Origin: Hydractinia symbiolongicarpus
Taxonomy: Eukaryota > Cnidaria > Hydrozoa > Anthoathecata > Hydractiniidae
Assembly: GCF_029227915.1 (NCBI RefSeq)
Contig: NC_079880.1
Location: 21,888,501 to 21,952,500, forward strand
DNA length: 64,000 nt
Direction: 5' to 3'
A program made the position numbers and the translations under genes. This document shows, piece after piece, positions 2,840-39,727 of the stretch (positions within the stretch are counted from its first letter, which is position 1; every line of letters begins with the position of its first letter). The notes under the pieces were generated by a model. The model was not told the origin of the DNA, did no database searches, and saw only the letters and a program-made list of their open reading frames with translations.

Positions 2840-3112
2840 TTGTGGATGAACTAAAATATCCTAAAATTAGATGAAAGTGAGATCACTGCCAACTAATTCA
2901 TCAGACAGCTAAAATAATGAAGTTTTCCTTTACATCGGATCAAATATTCGTTTTTTGGTAAAAAGGCATTAGACGCAGATTTTGGAACAAGACAGTGCGC
3001 GATGAGCCTGTTACGTACAACCAATGCTAGAAAGGTTCACATGCTGCAATGAATGCCTACTGTGAGTTTTCAGATGAAAAACATGATGCACAATAGTCGC
3101 TATTACACTGGA
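2840..3112. other. Spacer between gypsy relic and tandem array
   Basis: No gene or repeat structure is evident. The sequence becomes array monomer at about 3113, where gcgtttcaacatgtcagc begins. Confidence 0.5.
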
Positions 3113-8158: not shown

Positions 8159-8195
8159 TTTTTCATATTTCGTTTTTTTTGCATTATGCTTATGA
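7981..8195 (+). other. Recurrent unidentified reading frame, terminal copy
   Basis: Across monomers one frame stays open for roughly 60 residues and includes EEKKLALAYHHAKVFRETTD and CSIDGDHLHKWVSLKEHE. The terminal copy adds a short hydrophobic tail after the array ends. The composition looks protein-like (charged, few low-complexity runs), so this may be an exon of a gene caught in the amplification. I do not recognise it, and no start or splice signals are compelling. Confidence 0.3.
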
Positions 8196-14430: not shown

Positions 14431-14639
14431 GCAGTTTTTGTTTTAAAAGACCTTAAAGCAAGTTTCTCTTTTTTTTGATTTTACAAGATTTTGTGTGACT
14501 TGCGAAAGATCTCTCAGGCGTTTTTTATTTCTTACATTCCATATTTGTAACAGAAAAAACTCCAGGAATGACGGGGGCGTTTTCAGGCTCAACCCAAGTG
14601 GTAGAATGTCGAGACATCCAGATGTAAAAAGAAGCACTC
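14431..14639 (+). other. Possible upstream exon or leader of the Harbinger-type gene
   Basis: The plus strand holds an acceptor-like tttgtaacag near 14550 followed by an open stretch into the transposase start, but with a stop just after it. I cannot decide between a leader and intron remnant. Confidence 0.2.
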
Positions 14640-15300
14640 ATGGAGGTAAAAGTTAGGAATTTTAATAGGGAACGTAAAGGCTTGTTAGGGAAGCCAAGGC
14701 GACGAAAACAGGTCCTTACTGATTCTGAACAGAAACTCCTTGGTTATTTGTTACAAAAAATGCCAAAATCATTCATCGAAACTGGTCATGGTCTCACAGA
14801 TATTGTTATTGATACAACTGAATTCAAATTTCAGCATGCCCCAAATTTCGAATTAAACAGTTTAATGTTTTCAAATTACAAAAACACAGTCACTGGCAAA
14901 GCACTGATTGGCATTTCACCACATGGTATGGGCTTATTTTTCAGTGATATATACCCAGGATCAATTTCAGACTCAGAAATTACTGAGAAAACTGGTATTC
15001 TGGAACTTGTACAAGAAGAGCATGAGGTTATGTCGGACAAAGGCTTTTCAATCCAAGAACTATGTGCAAGTAAAGGTGTAACACTTAACAGACCGAAACA
15101 AAAAAATAATCCTCAATTCAGTGAAGCAGAAATTCAAGACAATTTTAACATTGCTTCTACGCGTATACACGTTGAAAGATTTATTGGCCGTGTCCGAGAT
15201 TGAACTATATTGAACAATGTTGATCTCCTAAGTTCTACTTGGATAATGCTTTGCCATATTATAAATATAACAATGTCTCCAATTGGCCCTAAAGAGTAGT
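14640..15300 (+). pseudogene. Harbinger-type DDE transposase (DDE_Tnp_4-like), C-terminal nonsense
   Basis: The open frame of 187 residues from the ATG at 14640 starts with a basic region and a helix-turn-helix-like piece. It then jumps to the catalytic core: first D in IVIDTTEFKFQ (about residue 58), YKNTVTGKALIGISPHGMG, the GSISDSEITEKTG block, second D in VMSDKGFSIQ, and catalytic E in RIHVERFIGRVRD. TGA at 15201 follows RVRD, but the same frame stays open to TAG at 15298 with residues that continue the family's C-terminus (TILNNVDLLSS and on), so a Trp codon probably became TGA. The stretch between the N-terminal part and the first D is shorter than usual, suggesting an internal deletion. 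It converges on the YqaJ gene tail at 15437. Confidence 0.8.
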
Positions 15301-15436: not shown

Positions 15437-17074
15437 TCATATGGTATTAAAATCGTCTATAAATTCAACAGTTTGTACCGATTTAGTGCAAGTTTTGACG
15501 AAAGTCCTGAGTGATTTTAATTTAAAGTCCAAATTTTTTTCTAAGAGTGCTTTTCCAAGTTGTTCCAAAACTCTTGTCTCTGTGTATGGCCAATCATATA
15601 TTTTTTGATCATTTATAATACAGTCGCAAATAAGTGTTATGATTTCCAAAAGCAGATCATCCCTTTTGATGAAGAAAAACGTACCATTTTGAGTCTCAGG
15701 ATGGTAAGAAACCAAAACACAAAATTTCGTGTCCGTGCATGACATCTGCAATTGACATTGAACAAAATAATTTGGAAAGGAATTCAAAGATTGAATTGGG
15801 CCATCTGAATTCTTTGCTCGAGTTTTAATTTCGACCAATATAGCACATGGGCCAAGAGCGTCAGGACTTGCACCATATCTTTTGTTTACTGGATGCGTGA
15901 AGAATCCACATGTTTCTGTTGAAGGTTTGGAAATTTTTTCAAAATATTTTATCCCTTCTGCTTCGTATGTTCTGCCTCTCACAATATTTTCAATTCCATC
16001 CAATAAACCTTCGTCGCTTGCTCCACTTTGTACAATATTCCAATATTTTTTCAAACTTTTCCTGTCCGTATAATCCCAACAATGATGGTAATCGGCTTCC
16101 CGTAATCATAAATTTTCTAGCCTTGTGCCATTTTTCTGAAGTCTGACAAACATCAATGTAATTAGAACCGCATGGCTTTGGAGCAATTAGAAAACTGATA
16201 TCTAAATTGATTGAGTTTAAATTTTTTTGTTTACAAATAGCCTTGCAAATTTCTTGTGTTGTGTTATTTTGTATGTCGTATGTTGTAGTATGCGTTTCAA
16301 TATGTATATCAAACAAATTTTGCTCCAGAAATTGTTGCACTGTAATTTTACTACACTCAGTATCTTGTACACTTGACAACAAAGAAGTACCTTCAGGCTC
16401 AACTTGAAACCCTGTGCTGTTTTTGATTTGTTCCACTTTCAGCGGGTCAATCCCTAACACATGACTTTTAAAAACTTCTTTACTAACATACTGATGGTCA
16501 GCTAAATAATGAAGTTGGTAGGTATAACACAAATGCTCACCCACTGAAGTTTTACGTCCAATTTCTGATTGAGAGAGAACAGTGAAAACATGTTCTGATA
16601 CAGGCTTTTCTCGATCTAACTTTGCATTTAGGTCCTGGATTATTGAAGAAACATTTCTTTTAAAGTGGGACTTGTCAGAATCTGCAGCACTAATAGCATT
16701 CTGCTTATTTTTCTTCATACTAGCTGATTTTAGATTAATATCATTTAATGGTATCATAGGAATAGATCCTTTTGAAATTCTACGGTGCCATTTCTGAAGT
16801 TTTTCTGTACATGTTAATTCGAGTATTTTCTCTTTGGTATCAGTAAAGTGTTTTAAAAACAACAATAATGACAGAACATGACAACATAGTCCACTAGCTC
16901 CCACAGGGCAGACACAATGAGCTTTTTGAGGCTTATGTTGATAAAAGTATATTACAGCTGGTCTAGAATCGTTTTCATAAGATTTTTTAATCATAGCTTT
17001 CACAAACTGACCACTTTCATCTCGTAGCGTCTTGACATTGACAATTTTTCGGCTTTGAAACATTCGAAAGGCTT
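15437..17074 (-). pseudogene. SWIM zinc-finger plus YqaJ-nuclease part of a SAP-SWIM-YqaJ gene
   Basis: Read leftward from 17074: AREAFRMFQSRKIVNVKTL, then a SWIM finger (CVCPVGASGLCCH, about 16920-16880). A conserved ELTCTEKLQKWHRRISKGSI follows (about 16810-16760), then a Ser/Lys linker. The YqaJ-type nuclease follows: SRLPSLLGLYG (about 16110-16080), RGRTYEAEGIKYFEK (about 15975), GASPDALG (about 15870) and VEIKTRA (about 15835). Asp in SPD and the E.K pair form the PD-(D/E)XK-like active site and are present. A single frameshift near 16040 separates two long frames. The N-terminal SAP exon lies at 31489-31875, beyond a 14.4-kb insertion. Such proteins probably bind and trim DNA (lambda-exonuclease-like fold); the cellular role is unknown. 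Confidence 0.8.
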
Positions 17075-17090
17075 CTCGGGCAACTTACGG
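17075..17090 (+). repeat. Left terminal inverted repeat
   Basis: CTCGGGCAACTTACGG is identical to the complement of 31473-31488. Inward the two ends differ at once (acag versus cgcg). Confidence 0.85.
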
Positions 17091-17570
17091 ACAGTCCCTA
17101 ACAGGCCAATGTAGTGATCTCACTATGGGGAAAGAACTTTTCATGTCGGTTTTTAGGCTAAAACGTAGCTTTTGATGGACTGTTCTTAAAAAAAGCTGTT
17201 AAAATATTATAAACTAAAAAATGACGTCACAGCTTCGATTTCAAGTTTCCTTGTCGGTTCGTTTTAATTGAATTTATTCAAAAATACGGCTCCCGGAAAC
17301 TTTTAACAGCTTTTTTGTTAGTCACTGACATATCAGGCACGAATTGTGACAGATAAAATATTTACAGGTTGCCCGCGCATAGTGAGAACACTGTTTTCCG
17401 ACAGTTTTTCAAATATTTCGTCAAAATAGGGCATTTTCGTCAACATTTGACGACAGTGTCGGGAATGCGTCGAGTTTTTCCGTAATGTTAGCAGAAGCGC
17501 GAAAATTGAAAATGGTAGCTTAAGGCGGTAAAATATATAAACATTATTTTTGCCGAACAATTACTGCAGT
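17091..17570. other. Left end and presumed promoter region of the 14.4-kb element
   Basis: No gene is present. The sequence is a moderately GC-rich patch followed by an AT-rich segment with aaaatatataaac about 40 bp before the first ATG at 17571. That could serve as a TATA-like element, but it is not diagnostic. Confidence 0.35.
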
Positions 17571-18397
17571 ATGGGAACTTTTTTTCAATGTGCGTTTATG
17601 AGAGCTGAAGTAATACGCAGTACTCAAAGTATTAGTTATCGCAACAAAGATGTACGTTTTAATAATTTTTTGGCTATGTTTCCGCATCAATCAATAACTA
17701 AGGAATACTTTAACAGAAAGGCCGGCGAGCTTAATGCATTTGTCAGAAAATTTAAATGGATGGGCGAAAAAAGGTGTAAGTACCTGGAGGAGTTTTCAAG
17801 AGAAAAGTGGTTAAAGCTGGACAGTGACAAGCAAAAATATCATACAACGCACGAATGTGTAGGATGCAGTTCACTTAAAGCGGATATAAATACATTTCCA
17901 ATTTCAACAACACACAGACGCAAAAAACCTAATCGGTTGAAAACACCCTTAGCTGATATCACAAATACACCAGATACACCAATAAATATTACTCTCGAAA
18001 TTCCGCACACAAAAAATGAAATTTCATATATGAAAGGAGCAGCCGAGTTTGTTCTTGACAGTGTCAATGACAAATGGGATAAAATATTTGATACACCGTT
18101 TACTAAAATTTTGACGAAAGTGAAATCAGCTAACGTTGCGGAAGTAAAAACAAATTGCGAAAAGAAAAGAGAGTTAAGGCAAAAAAATACAAAAATTAAA
18201 AAATGCCTGGAAAAAAAATGTTTTGGTCAAGGCAAAGTCATGGATACGATTTTGGGAATCAGACAGTCCAAATCTACCTACAAAAAATAAAGATCCATTC
18301 AGTATCTTGAGAATAAAGAAAAAGCAGTTGAAAGAATGATTGGTAAGAACAAATTTATTTATTTTTTATCCAATATTAGAGCAATGTTATTATAAAT

Positions 18398-18483
<86 letters not shown>

Positions 18484-21400
18484 TATAAATATATGTACAG
18501 CAACTGTTTCCAACATATGTAAAACTAATTTTAGAACAAGTTAGAACTATACTGGGCTGTATGATTTTTTACAATTTTTGTACAAAAACAAACGTTACAC
18601 ACTTTTTAGCAGGAATGAAAGAACTAAAAAAATGTTTAAAACATAATAATAAACAAACCAAATTAAAAAAACAAACAAACAAACAAACAAGCAAATAAAC
18701 ATCTTTTTAGGAAGAAAACAATCACTGCAATCTCAAACAGATGATACACCAATAAAGAAAAAGAGGCATAGTCCAGACACGAATAAAATTAATTTTGACA
18801 AAAATGCACTGTTAGAAGAAGTAAAGCATATGGAAGATGGTTCAAAGGTAGTTACGAATATAATATTCTGTAAACAGTACTTACAATATCCATTAACACA
18901 CGGATAATTTTTATAAATTTTAGATAAATTATTCTGAATTGGCACGAAAGTATGGCATTCCTGGCACCACTGGAAATACGGTTGTCATAGAATACCTGGA
19001 AAACAATGGCATCGATTTATCGAAATTCACCAACAACTTTGTTAATCCAAACCGAATGCGTCGTAAATACGAAAAATTTCCAGGTAAGAATCTAAAGAAT
19101 AATGTTTTACACATTACAACAGCTTTTTCCTGATTTTCCAATTTTTGAAAGCTTTTTTTTAATAAATTTTGTATTTTTATCACACAAATTTGTAGTTTTA
19201 AATATTCTAATGTATATATACTACTTTTGTTCTACTACTGTTCTATGAACTTTATAATCTGTAATACTACTGTTCTATAAATTGTAAAATGTATAATACT
19301 GTACCAAAAATATGTATATATACTTTACAGAGTAACATATCAACGTACGAAAAACTACATAAAAAAGATCTTGAACTATTGTTGTAAAATCATTTGGCAG
19401 GTCAGTAAATTTAAATAATTATTTGTTAATTTACTCATTTTGTTGTGAAATTCATAACACATATATATATATGTGAAACCGTTTTATTATTTAATTGAGT
19501 GAGTCATTCATATATTTACTATTTTCTTTATGTTAAGGAATGTCACGTGCTCCAGCTCTTTGTTATGGTAATGAGCATGATACCATGGCTTCATTGAATC
19601 TTGAAGAATACGAAGTTATGCCAATTGAACCACTACATGACTTCAAGGGGCATATAAAAAATGTGTGGGATGTCCTGCCTGAGATTTTAATACCTAAGGA
19701 GTATAAAAAATTCCAACAATCCTTGGATGCCACATATGGTTATAAAGATAAAATCAAAGGATCAGACTACCGAATGTCGACAATAGTGGTTTATCAAGCA
19801 ATGAAAAACAATTGCAGGAACAAAATTGAAGACCTTTTGTACACTTTGATGGAGATAGTACGTTTAGCCTACATGAAGTCACAAAAAAGATCACCAAAAC
19901 TTATTCTACGCATACATAATGTGACCTTTCAGCATGCAATGTTATGTCAGTCTGTACTTGTAAATAACCTGAAAACAATAACAAAAGAAAAACTCTATGG
20001 CATATATTTTCATTCCCTGAGGTGTCAAGAATTGTTGCTCCAAGCTCCTTACATTCAGAAAATGAAGAGCAGTTGTTCAGTAAAATAAATCAAATCAGCT
20101 TGGGAACATCATCAAGAACGTTGGAGTCTATACGTGATAATAGTATCGTTCGCATTCAAGAAGAGCAAAAATTCAATATGAAGAATGCTAGAAGTAAAAC
20201 ATCTTCCAGCACTTCTAAAATATCAATGTTTTACAAGTCTATTGTTGGTAAGTTTTAATTAGGCGTAATATATATCATAAAAGCTATTTTTTTCCTTTGA
20301 TTTTATCTTAAATACTTTATCAGCTTTTTTGAAGGGTGTTGTAATAAAACAATTTAAAAGAATAAAAAAATCCACCCATTTTCTTACGAAACTGAAAATA
20401 AGTCCACACAAACTGCACCAAAACTACACTGGCATTAATTTATTCTTGCATTAACATAGCCCCAAAGGGTAATTAAATTAAATTTCATCTTACCAATTTT
20501 CTTTAGACAATTAGTTTTAGGTATATATAGTTTTTATTTGCGAGAATTAATTTCCCAAATCAGTCAATAAAAAGTTTCGATCGTGAGATTTTAATAAGCT
20601 TAATTGTTTTGCGAAATCATGAAATCCAGAAAAATTTCTTTAATTGAAAAAAGAATCTGAAACACGTTCTTCAAATTTGTAACCTTCATAAATAGTGTAT
20701 ATACAACAATTATCCACATTTTTTTCCTATACGAAATTAATGAGCACAAAGTCTCGTGTTAAATTTTAGATGGAGGGAAAAGAAGCAGTTTTGATATAAA
20801 TCTACCAACACGGAAATATCAAGCTCATTTAGAAAGACTGGCAGACTTTCTAGTTTGTGGTGCTGGTGTTTGGTGGCACATGGATGAAGATAAAAAACGA
20901 GTAATATTTCATGATGGAGAGGAGGATGATAATGTCAGGGATGAAGGACCGCTAATGAGCCACTTCAAAAGGGACAAACTTCAATCCATAGCAAGGCATA
21001 TTAAAATTTGCTGGGAAAGATGTGTGAAAGGTAACATTGAGTTACCAATTGAACAAATTAATTTATTTGATATCAATGGTGACTTTTTGAAGTGCAAAAC
21101 ATTTCAGGATTCCATATGCAAAATAAATAAGGAAACAATGGTAGAAGACAAAACAAATATGGAAGCAAACGTAGAGATGTGCGAAACAAACAGGGATGAC
21201 TTACCAGGAAGCGAAGATAACAATGAAGTTACTGAAGTTTCACTAGAGGAACAACCTGGAATACTTGCCATGGATGATAAAGCCGTCGATTTTGAAAAAT
21301 TTATACAGGTAAAGGAAAATCATTCTTCCAAGTTAGTAACAAAAATGGTTGTTACACAGAACAGCGATTTGCTTGTGTCCAGCGTTGGTAAGATGATTGC

Positions 21401-21701
21401 ACATGTTATTGGACACTCAGTAAAATTGCAAGAGTTTGATAAACATAATGTCTTATTTAAAAATACAAAAAACGAAAACTCAAGAAAAAGGTGTAAAGAT
21501 TTAATTTTTCATTTCCGCAAATTGATTATGGATGCCCAACAGGAAGCACAAGTTTGTATTCAAACTTGGGAAAAACAGTTAGTAGACAAAAATTTGAAGG
21601 TGCCAAGTATAAATGACTTGCGGTTAAATGACACCTACAGGGAAAAATATAAAATAAATAACATTGCTCAGAAACTTTTAGATCAATGGAGGAAGATATA
21701 A
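17571..21701 (+). pseudogene. Five-exon gene of the 14.4-kb element, candidate transposase
   Basis: Predicted exons: 17571-18342, 18711-18847, 18924-19083, 19538-20247 and 20770-21701. Every junction has GT and AG, and phases match (G|GA, 0, G|GA, G|AT), giving about 900 residues. The first ATG is at 17571; the frame upstream to 17550 lacks ATG. Exon 1 encodes a basic globular part with WMGEKRCKYLEEFSREKW and a HECVGCS pair. Exon 3 looks helix-turn-helix-like (YSELARKYGIPGTTGNTVV). Exon 4 holds the most conserved-looking block: APALCYGNEHDTMASLNLEE and EPLHDFKGHIKNVWDVLPE. Exons 4-5 carry an ENEEQLFSKINQISLGTSS stretch and FLVCGAGVWWH. An in-frame TAA at 18288 and a frameshift near 20018 disable it. 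I have seen the exon 4 blocks in unannotated cnidarian and sponge proteins. Placement in inverted ends suggests a transposase; no DDE triad is proven. Confidence 0.6.
18407..18479. repeat. (TA)n microsatellite
   Basis: About 36 TA units lie within the first intron of the candidate transposase gene. Confidence 0.95.
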
Positions 21702-21851
21702 AGTGTTTGTTTTTTCAGAATATATATATTGTTAAACAATGTTTATATTTTAAATAATATATTCTAGAAATTTTGAGGACAATATTTCTAAAAAAGGTTA
21801 AATCTCACAAGTCTGGTCTTGTTTTAACTTTACACAAGAAATAAGTTTTTC
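21557..21851 (+). repeat. 295-bp direct duplication, left copy
   Basis: This covers the last 145 bp of the final exon and the following 3' sequence. It is repeated at 30265-30559 with the same length and about four substitutions, so the two flank the Penelope-like composite exactly. Confidence 0.9.
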
Positions 21852-22428
21852 ATATTTATAGTTTAAAAGTTGCGGAAATAGTGCCTGTAGGTAAATAAGT
21901 GTATGTGTTTTTAACTTTCAGCAACACGCTCATTCCAACCCAGTGCAACCCAATTTCTATTTAGGCTAAATTGTGACGAAAAAAGAAATGATACTCTAAC
22001 TTGCCCCTCCAACCTATGATAGAAGTCACGCGTGCCCCCCGCGCCCCCTCGTTCCCACAAAAAGATAAAACGACAGAACAAACACCCCTGTATTCGCATA
22101 GACGGCTCCAGTGCCAAGCACTGTCCCATTTTTTCAAACTTTAGTCCGTATTTCTATAACTTTCCCCTTTAACCCATAAGTCTAGTCACACGTGCCCCCT
22201 GCGTCCCTTCACCCCCCCCCCCCCCCCCCAAAAAAAAAGGATAACGACAGGACAATTAACCCCGCACCCTGATGAACCGCGTCAGTGCCGAACAGCGGTT
22301 ATACGTCAATGCACCTATACGCGTCCTCAATCCGATACGCGTCTTACCCTCCCATGCAGCCCTTTGCGAGCAATTGTAGTTATGGTAAATCGGCAAAATT
22401 AAATAACGCTTATATTAAGTCATAAGCC
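21852..22428 (+). repeat. Penelope-like arm A
   Basis: This arm is inverse to 24190-24757 and 29691-30264 over its full length, including a variable C run (about 22211-22229) that appears as G runs in the other arms. An open frame of 72 residues recurs in the arms but is strongly GC-biased and probably not coding. Confidence 0.9.
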
Positions 22429-22503
22429 GTTCGGTTTTCTTCCGTTCTGTTTCATTCCATTATTCGTCTCAGCATTATTATTAAAATTTTTTTTGCGCAG
22501 ATA

Positions 22504-22935
22504 ATGTCGCTGAACGCAACATACGCCGGTGAAGGAGATATAAAAAAGACAGAAATTTTCTTCAGCAATCTTAACAATAGCAATATCCAACGAATACGCG
22601 GCGAAATTTATAAGTCTATAAATGGTGACAGCTTTTTCCCAATACACACATGGCCTTTAGATATGCAGTTATTGTTCACTAACCTCCCTCTATCCGATTC
22701 AGATACATTTAAATTAATTTTATTTATGTTTGGAAATGGTTGCCCCCCACAAATTTGCATACAACATATTTTATGTAGCCACTTTAACAAAAACGCTATG
22801 AAAACGATAAAACGCATCCACCAAATTAGATGGATTACAACCAATTTGGAACACAAATTAAACACATGGTATTATTTTGACATATTTGAAAACAAAATGC
22901 TCTCTTTGAGTGGGATACCCAGGGGATCGTTATAA
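22504..22935 (+). CDS. Penelope-associated ORF1 (143 aa), copy 1
   Basis: This is an intact frame from the ATG at 22504, just after a tttgcgcag acceptor-like sequence, to TAA at 22933. It is recurrent: the same frame is intact at 28004-28435 with one residue change, so it has probably been under selection until recently. The protein is a small, mostly hydrophilic product with aromatic and His/Cys residues (CPPQICIQHILCSHF). I recognise no family. It sits upstream of ORF2 by about 115 bp, implying reinitiation, splicing or separate messages. Confidence 0.6.
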   Translation: MSLNATYAGEGDIKKTEIFFSNLNNSNIQRIRGEIYKSINGDSFFPIHTWPLDMQLLFTNLPLSDSDTFKLILFMFGNGCPPQICIQHILCSHFNKNAMKTIKRIHQIRWITTNLEHKLNTWYYFDIFENKMLSLSGIPRGSL

Positions 22936-23051
22936 AACTATTTCACATGCACCTCCCTTTTGGTCTCCCCTCCCCCCCCTTTTTAACCCCGACAAAATTA
23001 ATGATAAAGTGTTGTTCGCTATTTTTTGCTTTAAAATTTTAGTCTTTAATC

Positions 23052-23756
23052 ATGGACTGCGATCAACTCAGTACTGGCGTTCCAGAAGACTTTGACATGT
23101 TTGCTCCCCCAGAAGACTCCCCTACCTTCGTGCACCAAAGACACCTCGAAAAAGAAAAAAAACAAAGCTTGGACTTGCTCCTAAAAGAAAAATTAAAAAA
23201 AACAGAAATCGAGAACTTTGGGCCATGCATAAATATCATCCCCACCATTTCCCTTACAGAAAACCGAACTACCCACTGGAAGCAGATATGTCAACATACA
23301 GCCACCTCCCTTCACCATATTCTTCTGGAACAAGTCAATGAAAACATCACGCACATACAATCTAAATTAAACCAAATTAAATTACAATTACAGTACATAC
23401 ATATACCTACACCCATGCCAGACAACGTAACGTGCGGCCAACCCTCTCCAGGTAAGTCAGGTAAGTATCCCTCTACACCTCTGTCTCCACCTGTGACCAC
23501 AAACAAGAAAAATCCAATAACTAAAAGAACTACACTCCTCCCAAAAGAAGAAATTCCAAATCAAACGCAGCGGCCAGTACCACTCATGAATCTCAAAATC
23601 CGACCACGTAAATTATACTACAAAAACACCAACTCCAATTCCAATCGAAAAAACACCAAATCCAATGACCACCATAAAAATCAAAGAAAACCAAAACAAA
23701 ACAATTCAACAGCATCAGAAAGCACAATAAAATACAGGGATTATCGCTATTTTTAG
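23052..23756 (+). CDS. Penelope-associated ORF2 (234 aa), copy 1
   Basis: This intact frame runs from the ATG at 23052. The N-terminal third is acidic then coiled-coil-like (HLEKEKKQSLDLLLKEKLKK). The middle carries THIQSKLNQIKLQLQYIHIP. The C-terminal third is Pro/Lys/Asn/Ser-rich and strongly basic, as in nucleic-acid-binding gag-like proteins. I infer a nucleocapsid or ORF1p-like role for the retroelement; no zinc knuckle or RRM is visible. The second copy (28552-29257) is broken. Confidence 0.55.
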   Translation: MDCDQLSTGVPEDFDMFAPPEDSPTFVHQRHLEKEKKQSLDLLLKEKLKKTEIENFGPCINIIPTISLTENRTTHWKQICQHTATSLHHILLEQVNENITHIQSKLNQIKLQLQYIHIPTPMPDNVTCGQPSPGKSGKYPSTPLSPPVTTNKKNPITKRTTLLPKEEIPNQTQRPVPLMNLKIRPRKLYYKNTNSNSNRKNTKSNDHHKNQRKPKQNNSTASESTIKYRDYRYF

Positions 23757-24189
23757 TGATATATCTCTCACACACATGCACCTCCCCACTGCCATGGTAA
23801 GCCCGTACAAAATTATTTTTTCCAAATAAATTTAAATCAACAAAATATGCTATTTTTTAATTTCAACGAAGTCCAAATTTGAACAATCTCTGTACCCAAC
23901 CATATACAAAATATTTTGAGAACAAGCGCGCTCGCAACATGCACTAGTTGCACTATCGCTTGCTATAATTACCAATTTTATCTAAGCTTCTAGGCAAGAG
24001 ACTGCGGAGCGATATGCGTGACAAGATTAAAGCCACCGTCTTGCAGTAGTCACAAATTTCTTACCTCAAGTTTCTGGGGCATCGCGGGAATAAATGGTAA
24101 AGGGACGCGCGATAAATTGTTATAGACTGGCAAAGGTTGTAGCTTTTTCACCACGGACTTCTAGGCTACAACCTGTTGGGGCAAAATGC

Positions 24190-24757
24190 GGCTTATGACT
24201 TAATATAAGCGTTATTTAATTTTGCCGATTTACCATAACTACAATTGCTCGCGAAGGGCTGCATGGGAGGGTAAGACGCGTATCGGATTGCGGACGCGTA
24301 TAGGTGCATTGACGTATAACCGCTGTTCGGCACTGACGCGGTTCATCAGGGTGCGGGGTTAATTGTCCTGTCGTTATCCTTTTTTTTTGGGGGGGGGGGG
24401 TGAAGGGGCGCAGGGGGCACGTGTGACTAGACTTATGGGTTAAAGGGGAAAGTTATAGCAATACGGACTAAAGTTTGAAAAAATGGGACACCGCTTGGCA
24501 CTGGAGCCGTCTATGCGAATACAGGGGTGTTTGTTCTGTCGGTTTATCTTTTTGTGGGAACGAGGGGGCGCGCGGGGCACGCGTGACTTCTATCATAGGT
24601 TGGAGGGGCAAGTTAGAGTATCATTTCTTTTTTCGTCACAATTTAGCCTAAATAGAAATTGGGTTGCACTGGGTTGGAATGAGCGTGTTGCTGAAAGTTA
24701 AAAACACATACACTTATTTACCTACAGGCACTATTTCCGCAACTTTTAAACTATAAA
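24190..24757 (-). repeat. Penelope-like arm B
   Basis: This is the inverse of arm A and a direct repeat of arm C. It stands immediately upstream of the reverse transcriptase frame, as a pseudo-LTR would. Confidence 0.9.
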
Positions 24758-24950
24758 TATGATATTACATGAGCGGAGGCCACCCTCCTTGAATACACAC
24801 ACACTACCTGTACACCACGCTTTTCTTTCAGCGCCACGCTAATTTCAAATCTTCCCCTATAAGGTTAACCAATACATAGTTACTAAAGGTTCTTTTAAAT
24901 TTCTCCCCCCCCCCTTGTTTTAGAATTACCAGGAAGAAATTTACGCAAGC

Positions 24951-27033
24951 ATGACATCGTTGACGCAAACAACTCCCTCCATTGCAGAACACTTGGAAAT
25001 CCTACCTATAAAACGAAACATAAAACTTCCCTCGATCCGACGTCTGTTCCCACATAGCGTGGAATGGAAGAAACGCAACAAAAACTTATCCCGGAAAACG
25101 TCGGCAATACTAAAAGAAAACAAAAGAATATTCGAAAACAACCTAATTACCAATCTCTCCGCACACACATTGTCTCCAGAAGAAACGGAAATCCTCTCTC
25201 GGGGTCTCTCCTTTGTGCCTACACCAACAAAATACTCCTCCCCATCTGAAACGGGATCTTTAATAAATTTTACTACTACTATGAAAAGACAAATATTTTT
25301 CGCAAGCGAGGGCCCTGAAAATACGAAAGTTGAGCCTCACCCCTTCCACGTCCGAACAAATTGGCAACCACCTACACCTGATAACAAGGACTTGCTCGAA
25401 TATTTTGAAAAAATCACAAACGACATAAATTTAATTAATTCTCCAACTCCCGGGAAACATAATATAAATCACCAACACAGAAGAGCTCTTGTCAATCTTG
25501 CAAGAAACCCAAACATCACCATAAAACCAGCAGACAAAGGTGGGGGGATCTGCATTCTTAACACTACCGAATACATAGACAAAGTCCACTTGCACCTTAA
25601 TGATAGAAACACATACATACAAATGCCAAATGACCTAACCAATGACATTAGCAAAGAGGTAAAAGATTATGTCGATTTCCTTGTTGTTAAACAATACATT
25701 GACAAAACGACTAGACGATTTCTAACTCCCCCTAATCCACCGCGCACATCACTATTTTACGGACTACATAAAATACAGACTACATAAAATACATAAACCT
25801 GAGATCCCACTAAGACCGATTGTTTCGGGTTGCGACAGCGCCACAGACAACCTATCAAAATACGTAACACATTTCATCCAACCTTTGGTCACGAAACTAC
25901 CGTCCTACATTAAAGACCCAAAACACTTTCTCAGAGGATTGCGGGAGCTCCCACCTATGCCCGAAAATGCTTTTCTTGTAACAGCAGACGTTACGGCTCT
26001 ATACACAAACATCCCCCATGATGAAGGAATTAAAGCAGTACTCGATTTTATAAAACAATTTAGAAATGAAATGCCTAAATATACCCCACCAAATCATGTC
26101 TTTCACACGCTGCTGCATCTCATTCTTAAAAACAGTTTTTTCAAATTTATGACATCATTTTATCACCAAATTAAAGGAACGTCCATGGGTACAAGAATGG
26201 CCCCACCTTACGCAAATCTATTTGTGGCAGTACTTGAAGGCCTAATCATAGCTGATTTTCCCAGTTTTATTGAATTCTGGAAACGCTTTATAGATGACAT
26301 TTATTTCATATTTACGGGAACTGAACTACAATTAAAACAATTATTCACACACATGAACAAAATTCACCCTTCCATAAAATTTACTTTTGAGTATTCAAAA
26401 TCAGATATTCCCTTTCTTGACACACGCATATATATTGACTAGTCTTGCAAATTACAAACAACCCTATTCCGCAAACCTACTGATAGAATGATGCTTTCAC
26501 ACTACTCCTCTGAACACCCTCATCATGTTAAGGCTAGCATCGTATATACCCAGGCATTGAGATATTGCACAATCATATCCAATGACCAAAATTTAGAAAA
26601 GGAATTATATACTCTTGCACGCACATTCCTGGCTAGAGGATACCCCCTAAATCTCTTAATTGATAAATTTTCAAAGGCTCTGAATTTTTTGAGAAATGAA
26701 CTCCTCGAACCCGTCATGCACACACACGTAGAAGAAATGACACCACTCATAACTCCATTTTCCCCTGTTGGTATGGCGCAAAGTAGAATTATTCACAAAC
26801 ATTGGTCAGTTATCGAAAAAAATGAGACTTTAAAATCGATCTGGCCGTCCCGCCCCTTAACTGCATACACACGGGGCAAAAGCCTAAGAGACACTTTGGT
26901 TAAATCGGCTCAAAAACCTTTGCAATTATATAAAAATAATTTTTTTTTCTGTCTACATATATATATTTTAGGTAAAACATTATTGTGGTTTTCTTCAACA
27001 GCCTTGTCGTCCTTAAGTCAAAGGTCCTATTAA
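24951..27033 (+). pseudogene. Penelope-like reverse transcriptase, endonuclease domain not found
   Basis: From the ATG at 24951: an N-terminal region, KPADKGGGICILNTTEYID (about 25525-25580), DVTALYTNIPHDEGI (about 25987-26030), GTSMGTRMAPPYANLFVA (about 26178-26230), the catalytic box RFIDDIYFIF (about 26287-26316) and SDIPFLDTRIYID (about 26402-26440). Then come FRKPTDR and a thumb ending LTAYTRGKSLRDTLVKS. This is the Penelope-type RT motif set. Lesions: a perfect 16-bp tandem duplication (25762-25777, 25778-25793) shifts the frame, and TAG at 26440 interrupts it in frame. After LRDTLVKS, where a cysteine-rich linker and GIY-YIG nuclease usually follow, I see neither, so the copy is truncated or belongs to an endonuclease-lacking branch. 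Confidence 0.85.
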
Positions 27034-27112
27034 GCAATTATATTTTAGGGGACAAAACTCCTTCTCAAAAGGGCCAAAAATTCTCGAATTAATTTTTTGT
27101 CTTTTAATAAAA
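27034..27112. other. Transition after the reverse transcriptase
   Basis: This is a short AT-rich stretch with nothing recognisable. Confidence 0.4.
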
Positions 27113-27330
27113 CGGATCGAAAACTCCCGCCTTTTTGCAATCGGATCGAAAATTCCCGCTTTATGCTTCCTTTTGCGTCCGACAATTATCCAGACAGATC
27201 GAAAAACCCCGCCTTTTTGCAATCGGATCGAAAATTCCCGCCATTTTCGGATCGAAAATTCCCGCTCGATGCTTCCTTTTGCGTCCGACAATTATCCAGA
27301 CATATGGATCGAAATTTCCCGCTCCCAGAT
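27113..27330 (+). repeat. Minisatellite of GAAAATTCCCGC boxes
   Basis: The box gatcgaaaattcccgc or close variants occur six times (about 27116, 27145, 27196, 27226, 27250, 27306). A longer unit including gcttccttttgcgtccgaca is repeated with about 108 bp spacing. TTCCCGC resembles an E2F-type site, but the resemblance may be fortuitous. Confidence 0.7.
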
Positions 27331-27531
27331 TCGAACATTCTTGTTTACATCAAAGTCCGCAACCACCGCCGTTTAATCGAATAACGCGTTCGAAAAAATT
27401 TTTTTGGGGGCCTAGACACAACCAAAATATTATTGACATTATCTTCGAGATTCTCCAACTGTAAACATTGCTACCAACATATTTTATTTATCTTCAGTAA
27501 GTATGTTCAATTTGCATATAGCTAATGCGCA

Positions 27532-27533
<2 letters not shown>
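27331..27533. other. AT-rich spacer
   Basis: No feature is seen. Confidence 0.4.
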
Positions 27534-27582
<49 letters not shown>

Positions 27583-27589
27583 TATTTAC
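27534..27589 (+). repeat. (ATT)n microsatellite
   Basis: Roughly 18 ATT units with one interruption. Confidence 0.95.
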
Positions 27590-27930
27590 CCATGATAGCC
27601 TCTTCAGTTCCTATTGGTACTGCTATCAACGAGGGTCCTGTGAAGGGGGTCCTAGCGCATTTAAAGCTCCCATTTGAGCTACGAAAGTCGTGCAAGCACA
27701 GCAATCGCTCAACTAGACAACCGCCTAAGATATCAATCCTATTCTCATGCTGAGCACTAAGCAGAAAGGATAGAACGGGGACTTCTGTAATCGCAAGGAG
27801 TTTGCTCGGACACTTCCCTGTCGGGCAGGTGAAACATGTTTCACAGAAACAGGGAAGAAGCGGTACCTGCTCCTGATGAAGGCCGTTTTGGCAAGCTGAT
27901 CATTCTCGTTGTTTTGACAGTCCGCTCCGT
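27590..27930 (+). other. GC-richer noncoding block joining RT to the second cassette
   Basis: This unique sequence is richer in GC than its surroundings. It replaces arm A in front of the second ORF1; homology to the first cassette starts at about 27931 (ccgttcggttttcttccg). It contains an inverted pair gaaacatgtttcac. It may be the true 5' UTR or a separate insertion. It opens an in-frame extension of ORF1 back to 27836, probably by chance. Confidence 0.4.
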
Positions 27931-28003
27931 TCGGTTTTCTTCCGTTCTGTTTCATTCCATTATTCGTCTCAGCATTATTATTAAAATTTTTTTTGCGCAG
28001 ATA

Positions 28004-28435
28004 ATGTCGCTGAACGCAACATACGCCGGTGAAGGAGATATAAAAAAGACAGAAATTTTCTTCAGCAATCTTAACAATAGCAATATCCAACAAATACGCG
28101 GCGAAATTTATAAGTCTATAAATGGTGACAGCTTTTTCCCAATACACACATGGCCTTTAGATATGCAGTTATTGTTCACTAACCTCCCTCTATCCGATTC
28201 AGATACATTTAAATTAATTTTATTTATGTTTGGAAATGGTTGCCCCCCACAAATTTGCATACAACATATTTTATGTAGCCACTTTAACAAAAACGCTATG
28301 AAAACGATAAAACGCATCCACCAAATTAGATGGATTACAACCAATTTGGAACACAAATTAAACACATGGTATTATTTTGACATATTTGAAAACAAAATGC
28401 TCTCTTTGAGTGGGATACCCAGGGGATCGTTATAA
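28004..28435 (+). CDS. Penelope-associated ORF1 (143 aa), copy 2
   Basis: This is nearly identical to the copy at 22504-22935; one substitution changes Arg to Gln at about residue 29. The frame is open upstream to 27836, but that part lies outside the homologous region, so I take the ATG at 28004. Intact reading frames in both copies support real coding. Confidence 0.6.
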   Translation: MSLNATYAGEGDIKKTEIFFSNLNNSNIQQIRGEIYKSINGDSFFPIHTWPLDMQLLFTNLPLSDSDTFKLILFMFGNGCPPQICIQHILCSHFNKNAMKTIKRIHQIRWITTNLEHKLNTWYYFDIFENKMLSLSGIPRGSL

Positions 28436-28551
28436 AACTATTTCACATGCACCTCCCTTTTGGTCTCCCCTCCCCCCCCTTTTTAACCCCGACAAAATTA
28501 ATGATAAAGTGTTGTTCGCTATTTTTTGCTTTAAAATTTTAGTCTTTAATC

Positions 28552-29257
28552 ATGGACTGCGATCAACTCAGTACTGGCGTTCCAGAAGACTTTGACATGT
28601 TTGCTCCCCCAGAAGACTCCCCTAACTTCGTGCAATAAAGACACCTCGAAAAAGAAAAAAAACAAAGCTTGGACTTGCTCCTAAAAGAAAAATAAAAAAA
28701 ACAGAAATCGAGAACTTTGGGCCATGCATAAATATCATCCCCACCATTTCCCTTACAGAAAACCGAACTACCCACTGGAAGCAGATATGTCAACATACAG
28801 CCACCTCCCTTCACCATATTCTTCTGGAACAAGTCAATGAAAACATCACGCACATACAATCTAAATTAAACCAAATTGAATTACAATTACAGTACATACA
28901 TATACCTACACCCATACCACACAACGTAACGTGCGGCAAACCCTCTCCAGGTAAGTCAGGTAAGTATCCCTCTACACCTCTGTCTCCACCTGTGACCACA
29001 AACAAGAAAAATCCAATAACTAAAAGAACTACACTCCTCCCAAAAGAAGAAATTCCAAATCAAACGCAGCGACCAGTACCACTCATGAATCTCAAAATCC
29101 GACCACCTAAATTATACTACAAAAACACCAACTCCAATTCCAATCGAAAAAACACCAAATCCAATGACCACCATAAAAATCAAAGAAAACCAAAAAACAA
29201 CACAATTCAACAGCATCAGAAAGCACAATAAAATACAGGGATTATCGCTATTTTTAG
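28552..29257 (+). pseudogene. Penelope-associated ORF2, copy 2 (broken)
   Basis: This is the same gene as 23052-23756 but disabled: TAA at about 28636 where copy 1 has a sense codon, loss of one T near 28694 (aaaataaaaaaa against aaaattaaaaaaa), and further small changes near the 3' end. Confidence 0.8.
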
Positions 29258-29690
29258 TGATATATCTCTCACACACATGCACCTCCCCACTGCCATGGTA
29301 AGCCCGTACAAAATTATTTTTTCCAAATAAATTTAAATCAACAAAATATGCTATTTTTTAATTTCAACGAAGTCCAAATTTGAACAATCTCTGTACCCAA
29401 CCATATACAAAATATTTTGAGAACAAGCGCGCTCGCAACATGCACTAGTTGCACTATCGCTTGCTATAATTACCAATTTTATCTAAGCTTCTAGGCAAGA
29501 GGCTGCGGAGCGATATGCGTGACAAGATTAAAGCCACCGTCTTGCAGTAGTCACAAATTTCTTACCTCAAGTTTCTGGGGCATCGCGGGAATAAATGGTA
29601 AAGGGACGCGCGATAAATTGTTATAGACTGGCAAAGGTTGTAGCTTTTTCACCACGGACTTCTAGGCTACAACCTGTTGGGGCAAAATGC
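29258..29690. other. 3' noncoding part of the cassette
   Basis: This duplicates 23757-24189. It holds no frame of note and leads into arm C. Confidence 0.7.
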
Positions 29691-30264
29691 GGCTTATGAC
29701 TTAATATAAGCGTTATTTAATTTTGCCGATTTATCATAACTACAATTGCTCGGGAAGGGCTGCATGGGAGGGTAAGACGCGTATCGGATTGCGGACGCGT
29801 ATAGGTGCATTGACGTATAACCGCTGTTCGGCACTGGCGCGGTTCATCAGGGTGCGGGGTTAATTGTCCTGTCGTTATCCTTTTTTTTTGGGGGGGGGGG
29901 GGGGGTGAAGGGGCGCAGGGGGCACGTGTGACTAGACTTATGGGTTAAAGGGGAAAGTTATAGAAATACGGACTAAAGTTTGAAAAAATGGGACACCGCT
30001 TGGCACTGGAGCCGTCTATGCGAATACAGGGGTGTTTGTTCTGTCGTTTTATCTTTTTGTGGGAACGAGGGGACGCGCGCGGGGCACGCGTGACTTCTAT
30101 CATAGGTTGGAGGGGCAAGTTAGAGTATCATTTCTTTTTTCGTCACAATTTAGCCTAAATAGAAATTGGGTTGCACTGGGTTGGAATGAGCGTGTTGCTG
30201 AAAGTTAAAAACACATACACTTATTTACCTACAGGCACTATTTCCGCAACTTTTAAACTATAAA
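29691..30264 (-). repeat. Penelope-like arm C
   Basis: This is a direct repeat of arm B with a longer G run (about 29890-29905). It ends at the left edge of the duplicated gene segment. Confidence 0.9.
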
Positions 30265-30559
30265 TATTCAAACTTGGGAAAAACAGTTAGTAGACAAAAA
30301 TTTGAAGGTGCCAAGTATAAATGACTTGCGGTTAAATGACACCTACAGGGAAAAATATAAAATAAATAACATTGCTCAGAAACTTTTAGATCAATGGAGG
30401 AAGATATAAAGTGTTTGTTTTTTCAGAATATATATATTGTTAAACAATGTTTATATTTTAAATATTATATTCTAGAAATTTTGAGGACTATATTTATAAA
30501 AAAGGTCAAATCTCACAAGTCTGGTCTTGTTTTAACTTTACACAAGAAATAAGTTTTTC
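30265..30559 (+). repeat. 295-bp direct duplication, right copy
   Basis: This repeats 21557-21851, including the last codons and stop of the candidate transposase gene. After 30559 the sequence diverges from arm A and should be the original downstream sequence. Confidence 0.9.
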
Positions 30560-31472
30560 TAAGTCAGCATTTTAATTGCCTGTCGATTTTTTAAACCTGT
30601 GCAATACACCCGTTAAAACATAAACATTAAAACTTGTGAGTATATACATATTATTTTCAACAGCTTTTATTAAATATAGCTTTTGTATATACTTTATCAG
30701 CTAGCTATCCTTGATTTAGAAAATTAAAGATATATTGTTTTTAACAACCACTAAGGGACTTTTAGACGTACGCCCATGAAACAAGTTCAGATCAGTTTAA
30801 AAATAAAATAACAAAATCTTTTCTAAAGCACTCAAAAACTTTGACTCATTACGGTTCATTATGTGGTGCATATATCCGTACCCTACTAATGCAAGAGAAT
30901 ACTAGCTAGCTAAACTGCTTTTCTAATTAAGCTACTCTTTTGTACAGAGGCGGGATTTGCACCCACGACTATTTAGCTAGCTAATCTGTAATCTGCAGTG
31001 ATCTAAGACCTACATAAAGAGTTTGTATTTTTTGACTGACTGTTTTTTATTACTATTTATATTGCTGTTTATATAGCTATAGCTAGCTAGCTGTTAAACC
31101 ATGATGGTAAAAATTTAAACTTTAGCTAGCTAGGTAAACACTTTTGGGAGTTCTTAGTTAAATATATATACGTATATAATTTTATCTATAGCTGGAAAGA
31201 TCAAATATATACAATACAAAATGTGTCAAACCTTTTTTTTCAGTGTTCTGTTACAAATACGTCCCAAACATTTCTGTCAAAAAGACATTCGTAAAGAAGA
31301 TGGCTGCCTTCTTGCCCTCCTCTCTTCCCACACTTTAAAAATAATGGCATGTCAGCGATGTATCCTCCCACAAAATCAGCACGTCAAAAGAACACGTCAA
31401 ACAGCAAAACGCGGGAAATAATTTAAAGAAACGCGGTATACACGTGCTTCTCCCGAAAAAATTAAAGACGCG
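30560..31472. other. Right part of the 14.4-kb element, no clear gene
   Basis: AT-rich with several GCTA/TAGC-rich patches (for example about 31080-31095). A 66-residue plus-strand frame at 31221 begins with a hydrophobic run and is otherwise unremarkable. A tRNA-like arm lies near 30950. Confidence 0.5.
30945..31015 (-). other. Degenerate tRNA-like or SINE-head sequence
   Basis: On the minus strand gtgggtgcaaatcccgc forms a five-pair T-arm with a seven-base loop, close to a B box (GGTTCRANYCC). About 50 bases upstream is a purine/pyrimidine pattern that could be a worn A box. I cannot fold a full cloverleaf, so a tRNA-derived SINE scrap or chance is as likely. Confidence 0.25.
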
Positions 31473-31488
31473 CCGTAAGTTGCCCGAG
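31473..31488 (-). repeat. Right terminal inverted repeat
   Basis: CCGTAAGTTGCCCGAG is the exact complement of 17075-17090. Confidence 0.85.
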
Positions 31489-31815
31489 TTTGTCCTGTTG
31501 ACCTTGACTTCCTTCTCTTTTCTGCGAAGCATAGGGAAAAAACTCTTCTTGAGTTATTCTAGGGTAATTTGAATCATCAATTGACCACTTTGCCGATAAC
31601 TGAGGAATAGATGTTGGATCCAAGCTACAAGGAAACTTATACAAGCGAGTAGCTTTTTCCTGAAGCCTTCTAACTAGCTTAGGATATCGTACAAACTTGT
31701 GTATTTTTTGAATGAGTTCTTCTTTCGTGCCTGTCGTACTTAAACCAACATCCTTAAACCATTTCATAGCTTCATTTTTGCTTAAAGCATATATATTCCT
31801 GCCATATATTTCCAT
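31489..31815 (-). pseudogene. SAP-domain 5' exon of the split SAP-SWIM-YqaJ gene
   Basis: The first in-frame ATG on the minus strand is at 31815; the open frame reaches back to 31875 without ATG. It encodes ALSKNEAMKWFKDVGLSTTG with KEELIQKIHKFV, a SAP motif (helix-turn-helix that binds AT-rich DNA). It continues with YKFPCSLDPTSIPQLSAKW and YPRITQEEFFPYASQKREGS, then stops matching the family exactly at the inverted repeat (QGQQDK at the edge). The continuation lies at 17074 leftwards. It is therefore the N-terminus of the same protein as 15437-17074, separated by the insertion; whether an intact message was ever spliced around the element is unknown, but it seems unlikely. Confidence 0.75.
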
Positions 31816-32440
31816 ATTGGAGTAGAAGGCGAAAGCGAAAGCTATTGCAAGGTAGCCATCTTGTTTTTTTCCCACACGGGACTTAGTTAGATCGTATAGG
31901 CGGAAATTTGAATGTACCTAATACTATAAGAATAATTATATTTCAAGAGAGATGCACACCTCTAAACCTTTATTTCAGAGAATGAATGTCCTAAATATAC
32001 CATATAAATATATTCCAGACGCTTTGTTTTATGTTCAGACCAAGGGTGTTACCACAACTAGAACAGCTGGTCAATGTTGCACACCATTTAAGAAAACAAA
32101 ATAATCCATTCAATTTGCTATTTCATACTGAGATCCGTATACTTGAAATAAATTCTACAAGCAACAAATATCAATCGCAAATGAAACTTACTCTTTCAAA
32201 ACATTCCAATCAAAAGCTAAAAGGTTAATTTTACTAGATCTGCAGGCAGTTATGTTTTTTTTTTTAATTTTACTGTTTGCACTTACTCTGATATACTTAC
32301 AGATATTATAGATATATAATTACATATTATTTATAACACGACGTGAAATATATATGTAATTTCAGCTTGACATGCAAATATAACTTATAAAATTTTATTT
32401 ATTTACTTTATTTTTATTTATTTTATATATTTCTACGTGG
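31816..32440. other. 5' flank of the SAP gene, no clear gene
   Basis: AT-rich sequence with short frames only. It may contain the promoter of the minus-strand SAP-SWIM-YqaJ gene; I see no distinctive site. Confidence 0.4.
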
Positions 32441-33639: not shown

Positions 33640-34346
33640 CTTAGGTTTTTCAGGTGGTCAATTTGCTCCTTAAGAAGATTTGGATTTTGCTGCTCGGATT
33701 TATTAATGCTGCAAAAAAAGACATTATTATTTGATTGACAAGTCTCACATTTTCTGTTAGTAGTTTGGCAACTACTACCCATGGGATGACCTCTACTATT
33801 TTATACTTTCTCTGTAGTAGTGTCATATATTTTTTTGGTATGTGATGATAGAATTAATGAAATTGATTCATCCCTGTAACATGGTATCCGACCAAGCAAA
33901 AGAACAGCATGCTTTTCTACATAATTTTTAATAAACCTTTGTACATGGCAATTAGTTTCGTATGTATGAGCATTAGATGGGAGCCTATTGTTATTACCAT
34001 GTTTTTTTGGTTTTGCACCCTCCTCGTCAAAATTTTTACGACCAAAAGTTTGCAAGGATATATCAAGTAAGAAAAGGAATGTCTTTCTGCAAATTTTACG
34101 CCCATACATTAGAAAATTTATATGGCCTGAAATTGTAGATAGAAATTTTGGCAGCCTAGGAATTTGTAAAAAACTTAGTACAAACATGTCCTTTTCTTCC
34201 CCTGATAACTCAGCTACAGAATTTCTAGAACACTCTGCCTCTTCTCTAGTGAAAAGCTTAACACAATTGGAACTCCCGTTTCCCAGGTTACACCCGCACC
34301 CCTTCGCTAAAAATTCACTTATTGTACTTAACTCTGCGGTTTCCAT
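33640..34346 (-). pseudogene. Relic of an unnamed cysteine-containing cnidarian-type gene, unit 1
   Basis: The minus ATG is at 34346 (the frame extends to 34400 without ATG). It encodes SEFLAKGCGCNLGNGSSNCV, YGRKICRKTFLFLLDISLQT, KPKKHGNNNRLPSNAH and LLGRIPCYRDESISLILSS. I recall this layout (CGC...C, KICKKTFLF, K.HGN..R.P.., LPGR.P..RD) from numerous fish and cnidarian transposon-linked proteins of unknown function. TAA at 33801 breaks it, yet the same frame continues with a CETC segment to about 33640. It is divergent from the plus-strand gene starting near 34485/34717. Confidence 0.5.
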
Positions 34347-34716
34347 ATGTTCATATTTCTCATAAGTAGTAGCTGGTGTTTTTAATGAAACAAGCAACAA
34401 ACTTCAAGCGCTCAAATTTCCCTCGCAGGTAGCCGGCGGCATTGACATTGTAATTTGTAGGCTTAACCATGTGACATACGTAATATGTTTAAACTCTCTA
34501 AGACAAAAGTTCGGTTTTTCTTAACTGCAACTTCTGAGGACCGTTCATCAACTGGTCAAAGTAATCGAAATAATGATGCAGTATTCCATTTTGCCCCTAG
34601 CTACCCAACTGCCAACATTTGTATTTGCGCAACAAGACACGAAAATGGCGGAATTTTGTCCAGATAAAACAAGTCAAAACACGGTGAACAAAAAATATAT
34701 TCTTGTTTTTTTTTAG

Positions 34717-38649: not shown

Positions 38650-39357
38650 TCTTAGGTTTTTCAGGTGGTCAATTTGCTCCTTAAGAAGATTTGGATTTTG
38701 CTGCTCGGATTTATTAATGCTGCAAAAAAAGACATTATTATTTGATTGACAAGTCTCACATTTTCTGTTAGTAGTTTGGCAACTACTACCCATGGGATGA
38801 CCTCTACTATTTTATACTTTCTCTGTAGTAGTGTCATATATTTTTTTGGTATGTGATGATAGAATTAATGAAATTGATTCATCCCTGTAACATGGTATCC
38901 GACCAAGCAAAAGAACAGCATGCTTTTCTACATAATTTTTAATAAACCTTTGTACATGGCAATTAGTTTCGTATGTATGAGCATTAGATGGGAGCCTATT
39001 GTTATTACCATGTTTTTTTGGTTTTGCACCCTCCTCGTCAAAATTTTTACGACCAAAAGTTTGCAAGGATATATCAAGTAAGAAAAGGAATGTCTTTCTG
39101 CAAATTTTACGCCCATACATTAGAAAATTTATATGGCCTGAAATTGTAGATAGAAATTTTGGCAGCCTAGGAATTTGTAAAAAACTTAGTACAAACATGT
39201 CCTTTTCTTCCCCTGATAACTCAGCTACAGAATTTCTAGAACACTCTGCCTCTTCTCTAGTGAAAAGCTTAACACAATTGGAACTCCCGTTTCCCAGGTT
39301 ACACCCGCACCCCTTCGCTAAAAATTCACTTATTGTACTTAACTCTGCGGTTTCCAT
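38650..39357 (-). pseudogene. Relic of the unnamed cysteine-containing gene, unit 2
   Basis: This has the same sequence and the same TAA (38812) as the copy at 33640-34346, so the stop predates the duplication. This gene is absent from units 3 to 5. Confidence 0.55.
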
Positions 39358-39727
39358 ATGTTCATATTTCTCATAAGTAGTAGCTGGTGTTTTTAATGAA
39401 ACAAGCAACAAACTTCAAGCGCTCAAATTTCCCTCGCAGGTAGCCGGCGGCATTGACATTGTAATTTGTAGGCTTAACCATGTGACATACGTAATATGTT
39501 TAAACTCTCTAAGACAAAAGTTCGGTTTTTCTTAACTGCAACTTCTGAGGACCGTTCATCAACTGGTCAAAGTAATCGAAATAATGATGCAGTATTCCAT
39601 TTTGCCCCTAGCTACCCAACTGCCAACATTTGTATTTGCGCAACAAGACACGAAAATGGCGGAATTTTGTCCAGATAAAACAAGTCAAAACACGGTGAAC
39701 AAAAAATATATTCTTGTTTTTTTTTAG

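Follow-up and report, generated by a model that had tools for sequence, protein, structure and literature searches.

RAG1 is derived from a transposon, and the spread of its relatives and the differences among them bear on the origin of V(D)J recombination. In the passages of the literature cited here, RAG-like (RAGL) elements have ends beginning with 5'-CAC and generate 5-bp target duplications (PMC7204232), and the ends of Transib are asymmetric (PMC9435367). Chapaev elements, with Hydra among the species of their published tree, are described with CAC...GTG ends and duplications of 3-4 bp, which are TWA in Chapaev3 (PMC4079192). EnSpm/CACTA and Plavaka elements are given 2-3-bp duplications and a C(2)C/H(3-4)H layout, and KDZ elements duplications of 8 bp (Zisupton) or 7 bp (Kyakuja) (PMC12730594). 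The same source describes ESTA elements of fungi with 2-bp TA duplications and a RAG1 similarity detected by HHpred (PMC12730594). CNEST from Cryptococcus, with a length of about 7.2 kb, has 2-bp TA duplications and ends starting with CACGG and is reported to form a strongly supported clade together with unclassified animal transposases (PMC12810828).

The DNA analysed here (the window) is a stretch of 64,000 nucleotides from the genome of the hydrozoan Hydractinia symbiolongicarpus. From sequence comparison and structure modelling we consider it highly probable that it carries a broken member of a transposon family characterised by CTCGGGCAACTTACGG ends and a ten-exon gene for a predicted transposase of 1,264 residues with a RAG1/Transib-type core (Table 1). 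This is a multi-copy, probably recently mobile DNA transposon family that is apparently undescribed in animals; no prior description was found by a literature text search, Repbase being outside its reach.

Table 1. Positions in the window of the transposon copy, the element nested in it and the gene that it interrupts.
Feature	Positions	Strand	Remarks
Interrupted target gene, part with SWIM and YqaJ	15437..17074	-	YqaJ E 3e-6 at 15437-16105; parts in different frames
Target duplication TT, left copy	17073..17074
5' terminal inverted repeat	17075..17090	+	16 bp, perfect; CTCGGGCAACTTACGG
Exon 1, transposase N-terminal part	17571..18342	+	In-frame stop at 18288-18290; tblastn of P0003 and P0008
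Exon 2	18711..18847	+	Compare L012 exon 2
Exon 3, HTH-like segment	18924..19083	+	Label assigned by eye; compare L012 exon 3
SAP-like exon remnant	19325..19402	+	P0001 residues 265-290, E 0.005; contains a stop
Internal-loss junction	19331..19332		Exons 4-7 missing; about 1,607 bp less than in L029
Exon 8	19538..20247	+	EPLHD block, first His of Hx4H, third catalytic residue (Glu)
Last exon	20770..21701	+	Counterpart of subfamily A exons 9 and 10
295-bp direct repeat, left copy	21557..21851	+	Flanks nested element
Nested retroelement	21852..30264	+	About 8.4 kb; direct and inverted repeats, each about 580 bp
295-bp direct repeat, right copy	30265..30559	+	Flanks nested element
3' terminal inverted repeat	31473..31488	-	16 bp, perfect; complement of CTCGGGCAACTTACGG
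Target duplication TT, right copy	31489..31490
Interrupted target gene, SAP part	31491..31917	-	SAP E 2e-4, under Pfam's own cut-off

The perfect 16-bp inverted ends and the TT duplication of the original prediction were found to be exact in the window. CTCGGGCAACTTACGG matched at exactly two sites in the whole window when up to 3 mismatches were allowed (mean expected by chance, 0.10), and the insertion flanks read ...GGCTT / CTCGGG ... CCCGAG / TTTGTCC. Excision of the segment with retention of one TT brought the SAP and SWIM halves of the interrupted gene into a single stop-to-stop frame of 503 codons, as had been claimed. For the joined target protein 75 homologues were found, 59 of which span the junction in the alignment; the surroundings of the junction were readable in 58 of them and free of gaps in 56, and the remaining 2 show gaps of 1 and 3 residues located some residues off the junction. 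The insertion ends and the TT duplication are thus fixed by an outside standard, namely the homologues that run without a gap across the rejoined junction.

A search of the genome (480.9 Mb, 76 contigs) for the 16-mer gave 100 exact matches, 46 forward and 54 reverse, whereas the reversed 16-mer used as control gave 0 forward and 0 reverse matches in the same 480.9 Mb. Pairing of each forward match with the next reverse match on the same contig at a distance of up to 20 kb resulted in 41 inverted end pairs, including that of the window, and left 18 matches unpaired. The analysis covered 39 of the 41 pairs (38 loci and the window), two pairs whose ends lie 13.8-13.9 kb apart being left out. The 2 bases outside each end agreed in 38 of the 39 copies, with locus L034 as the exception; the agreement extended to 3 or 4 bases in three copies, and a target duplication of 5 bp or longer was found in none of the 39. 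If the window is taken alone, its single site could also be read as a chance pairing of ends, or the SAP-SWIM-YqaJ gene could be thought to have an intron-like feature there. This reading is refuted by the genome copies, with 100 exact matches against none for the control, by target duplications at 38/39 pairs, and by the 56 of 58 readable homologues without a gap at the site, and we give it practically no weight.

The 38 duplicated dinucleotides were TT (9), TA (6), AT (4), AA (4), CA, AC and TG (3 each) and six singletons. TT is therefore a duplication at the window site and not a target motif, as it occurs in only 9 of the 39 copies. No fixed base was found around the 38 insertion sites, and the duplicated positions are mostly A/T (30/38 and 28/38). 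All 39 copies have CTC...GAG ends, a pattern that is inherent in the query searched. In 38 copies (subfamily A 22/22, B 6/7, C 10/10; see below) the last 120 bp contain at least two CGCGTTT motifs, with a spacing of 22-23 bp in the three copies measured, and such a pair is absent from the first 120 bp of all 39. This asymmetric 3' pair may represent a binding block.

Cross-matching sorted the 39 copies into the subfamilies A, B and C, to all of which the outer 16 bp are common because they served as query. Subfamily A comprises 22 copies with a perfect inverted repeat of 26-27 bp, ten of them exactly 7,357 bp long and the rest near that length or internally changed. Subfamily B consists of 7 copies including that of the window and has an inverted repeat of 16 bp; its full-length members L028 and L029 measure about 7.3 kb, and the other four loci, with internal losses, 2.9-3.6 kb. 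The 10 copies of subfamily C (L034, L035, L038, L041-L043, L045-L048) are 2.5-3.4 kb long and have an inverted repeat of 21-25 bp. Matches to the protein were confined to residues 1-343 in the three C copies tested (L034, L038 and L048). As subfamily C has the same ends and a 2-bp duplication in 9 of its 10 copies, but retains only this part of the protein in the copies tested, its members were probably mobilised in trans. Subfamily C as the source of an N-terminal repressor was set aside; its longest ORFs have only 109-192 codons.

Multiple copies of the 16-bp ends beside homologues of the protein, which had been named as a check, thus exist in the genome, and some of these copies are intact. 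The ten 7,357-bp A copies differ pairwise by 0-8 bases, and L013, L019 and L020 are identical and lie on contigs C4, C7 and C7, respectively, with different flanks. The reading frame check, which covered these ten of the 22 A copies, found the same ten exons in each, encoding 1,264 residues without a stop and with 0-2 residue differences from the product of L012. In L012, every internal exon border is GT-AG, and 858 of the last 861 residues of its protein are identical to P0001. Besides the transposase gene, no second ORF of at least 100 aa was found in the intact element, and no RAG2-like ORF was seen. The presence of intact, near-identical copies suggests recent movement of the family; alternatively, their near-identity could come from gene conversion.

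The window copy itself is decayed, and the five-exon gene predicted at 17571-21701 turned out to be an incomplete model of a gene that has ten exons when intact. In addition to the stop in its first exon, the frame of exon 8 breaks near 20020, between the two His of Hx4H, and about 1,607 bp are missing, a loss over which the proposed splice 19083/19538 jumps. According to tblastn with the intact protein, the missing sequence encodes residues 397-669 including both catalytic Asp. Stretches matching L029 are 95.5-98.7% identical, and comparison of P0021 with the window copy gave 96.3 and 97.4% identity in the two longest matches. Because of the lost catalytic exons, the stops and the broken frame, the window copy is not expected to yield a functional enzyme.

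The claimed element size of 14.4 kb did not hold either, since the segment consists of a transposon of the 7.3-kb type and a nested reverse transcriptase insert of about 8.4 kb. A reverse transcriptase domain (RVT_1, PF00078) was identified by Pfam at 25726-26442 (E 9e-8), and judging from its reverse transcriptase motifs and layout, we take the nested element to be Penelope-like. The two copies of the 295-bp repeat flanking it are 98.6% identical in a self-comparison, and their sequence is the host transposon's own 3' part. One large transposon of 14.4 kb that carries the reverse transcriptase as cargo would fit the inverted ends, which bound the whole segment, and two further pairs in the genome whose ends are 13.8-13.9 kb apart. 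However, the 7.3-kb copies L028 and L029, likewise of subfamily B, can be aligned collinearly with the window copy and have no insert, the insert is bordered by a 295-bp duplication of host-transposon sequence, and among the seven B copies only that of the window is long enough for the reverse transcriptase. A single large transposon is thus very improbable, and we treat the reverse transcriptase as part of a nested insertion. The 295-bp flanking repeat is much longer than an ordinary target duplication, and the nested element also contains a 2.3-kb internal direct repeat.

Protein searches yielded 15 relatives in the first and 20 in the second search, three of them in common and 32 in total, and the named sources were Hydractinia symbiolongicarpus, Clytia hemisphaerica and Mytilus edulis. 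Thus, of the predicted occurrence in cnidarians and sponges, the cnidarian part stands and a mussel is added, but no sponge was among the relatives found. Scans of viral and prokaryote contigs, each using two peptide patterns, confirmed no relatives. In viral contigs the ends matched three times in isolation, which was taken as chance, and phage records contained no relatives. Among the Pfam transposase models none matched the intact protein or any of 15 members at E 1 or better, and among those of NCBIfam none matched the 4 members compared. The profile search proposed as a check did not reveal a transposase either; searches against PDB profiles gave a weak SAP match at best. A SAP model matched 3 of the 15 members (best E 7.9e-6). 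The family also suggests that some proteins labelled 'uncharacterized', in Hydractinia and Clytia as well as in a mussel, represent transposases which repeat annotation may miss.

Structure prediction, the other check proposed for the protein, indicated an RNase H-like fold with a conserved acidic triad. In both of two models, which rest on shallow alignments (25 and 18 rows), the best structural matches were RAG1, Transib and BbRAGL, with RAG1 at the top over 456-463 residues; HIV integrase was also matched, and Hermes (hAT) scored far lower than RAG1. Conservation was counted in alignment A5, which was reduced from 32 to 25 proteins by omission of seven short ones. In P0002 numbering and among rows with letters, D240 is conserved in 15/16, D336 in 18/18 and E615 in 21/22 rows. 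Two Cys (C354 and C356) occupy the expected place in 19/19 and 19/20 rows, mostly as CxC and in some rows as CxxC, and the Hx4H motif (H594 and H599) is found in 21/22 and 23/23 rows. Together with H467, these residues correspond to D492, D588, C606, C608, H726, H851, H856 and E872 of the L012 product, as derived from motif positions. As their counterparts in RAG1 we assume D600, D708, C727, C730, H937, H942 and E962. By arithmetic from the alignment end, the register of the Glu agrees with RAG1 within one residue in both structural comparisons, and with HIV integrase exactly in 1/3 rows, 2/3 rows being 3 residues off.

At the sequence level, alignment with mouse RAG1 by hhalign was not significant (E 0.2), 39 of 200 shuffles being equal or better and reversed RAG1 scoring 21.06 versus 20.49 for RAG1. 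The best local path of this alignment places Hx4H and the Glu opposite H937, H942 and E962. A loose long path aligns both Cys, but in it the two Asp miss D600 and D708 by 4 and 3 residues, respectively, and the global modes gave no useful alignment with RAG1. The transposase core is predicted to be of the RAG1/Transib type, RNase H-like and with a D-D-E triad from which we infer catalysis, and to be split by a putative zinc-binding insertion (CxC or CxxC together with Hx4H) that carries a SAP-like segment. The ends around homologues, the 2-bp duplications, the predicted fold and the conserved D-D-E together argue that this protein is the transposase of a DNA transposon with these ends, in agreement with the original prediction.

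The predicted fold and the Hx4H motif would place the protein with the CACTA-Mirage-Chapaev-Transib/RAG1 group, an assignment which is partly supported: the His motif, the fold and the duplication length, for which we used the range given in the cited passage (PMC12730594), agree with this group, the Cys motif agrees loosely and the ends do not. With RAG1, RAG-like elements (ProtoRAG) and Transib the family has in common the predicted core fold, the D-D-E, the zinc insertion and an Hx4H that precedes the Glu. A position inside the lineage leading to RAG1, as a divergent member of Transib or of the RAG-like transposons themselves, would fit the leading structural matches of both models, the single gene found, as in Transib, and the two ends that differ beyond the inverted repeat like the asymmetric ends described for Transib (PMC9435367). 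We nevertheless regard such a position as unlikely, since the Hydractinia ends are CTC and the duplication is 2 bp in 38/39 copies instead of 5'-CAC and 5 bp, and no sequence similarity is detectable. Moreover, RAG1, Transib and RAGL are the sole members of the clade in the structural tables and would rank first whichever of its members was compared; a family is not excluded by its absence from these tables. The ends (CTC...GAG, CTCGGGC), the 2-bp duplication and the lack of a visible RAG2-like ORF also set the Hydractinia element apart from RAG1 and RAG-like elements, and the SAP-like segment within the zinc insertion distinguishes the family from RAG1.

Chapaev and Chapaev3 likewise use a DDE transposase, but the ends and the 3-4-bp duplication of Chapaev differ from those of the Hydractinia element. 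EnSpm/CACTA and Plavaka are similar in duplication and Cys/His layout, whereas their ends differ and no Pfam transposase model was matched. KDZ elements (Zisupton, Kyakuja and Dileera) and hAT elements also have large eukaryotic transposases; for Zisupton and Kyakuja, duplications of 8 and 7 bp are reported, in contrast to 2 bp here, and for the latter the structural match of Hermes lies well under that of RAG1. A quite possible, if somewhat doubtful, alternative is that the family belongs to a 2-bp-duplication branch of CACTA-Mirage-Chapaev (CNEST/ESTA) and would then add a new family from animals to a superfamily whose description dates from 2025-2026. Element length, 2-bp duplication and RAG1 likeness all agree with this assignment; compared by description, CNEST shares the length of about 7.2 kb and the 2-bp duplication, and ESTA the duplication and the likeness to RAG1. 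On the other hand, the ends begin with CTCGG instead of the CACGG of CNEST, and TA constitutes just 6/38 duplications whereas TA is the duplication reported for CNEST and ESTA. CNEST would be the likeliest home of the family, if one exists.

With confidence slightly short of even, we propose that the family represents an animal lineage at superfamily level, hitherto represented by unannotated proteins alone, which would combine a RAG1/Transib fold, a SAP-like segment, CTC...GAG ends, an asymmetric 3' block and 2-bp duplications at unselected sites, and which would be moving today in Hydractinia. If this is true, the stagger of its transposase would be unusually short for a RAG1 fold, and a branch beside the ancestor of the V(D)J recombinase could be studied in a living animal. 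With its intact, near-identical copies in a hydrozoan used in the laboratory, the family would also be a comparison point beyond the RAG-like elements and Transib, and it might yield a new genetic tool. In the proposed mechanism, the transposase, with its core preceded by helical segments in the predicted enzyme, would bind the inverted ends and perhaps also the paired CGCGTTT at the 3' side. It would then excise the element and join it to the target with a 2-bp stagger and without a fixed target sequence. The window copy arose by insertion into the SAP-SWIM-YqaJ gene and has lost its catalytic exons, suffered a broken frame and received the retroelement.

By analogy, the interrupted gene may itself be part of a transposon. 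The SWIM label of this gene is that of the original prediction; a domain search of the window gave no SWIM match, and PF04434, which we take to be the SWIM zinc finger, is present in its homologue P0068. A DDE_Tnp_4 ORF at 14628-15203 (E 6.5e-31) adjoins the gene. This arrangement resembles the gene set of ISL2EU, described in the cited passage as a DDE transposase together with a YqaJ protein in most autonomous elements (PMC4482050), and three mobile elements are therefore possibly nested in each other. The best inverted match found for the ends of a surrounding ISL2EU-like element was 12 bp long and one of many, and no ends were assignable.

Elsewhere in the window, positions 3112-8163 consist of tandem units of about 1,049 bp with more than 99% identity. 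At positions 33132-58798 a block of about 5-5.8 kb recurs several times, as tandem or segmental copies with 96-99% identity, and two of these blocks share a minus-strand ORF of 200 residues (33801-34403 and 38812-39414).
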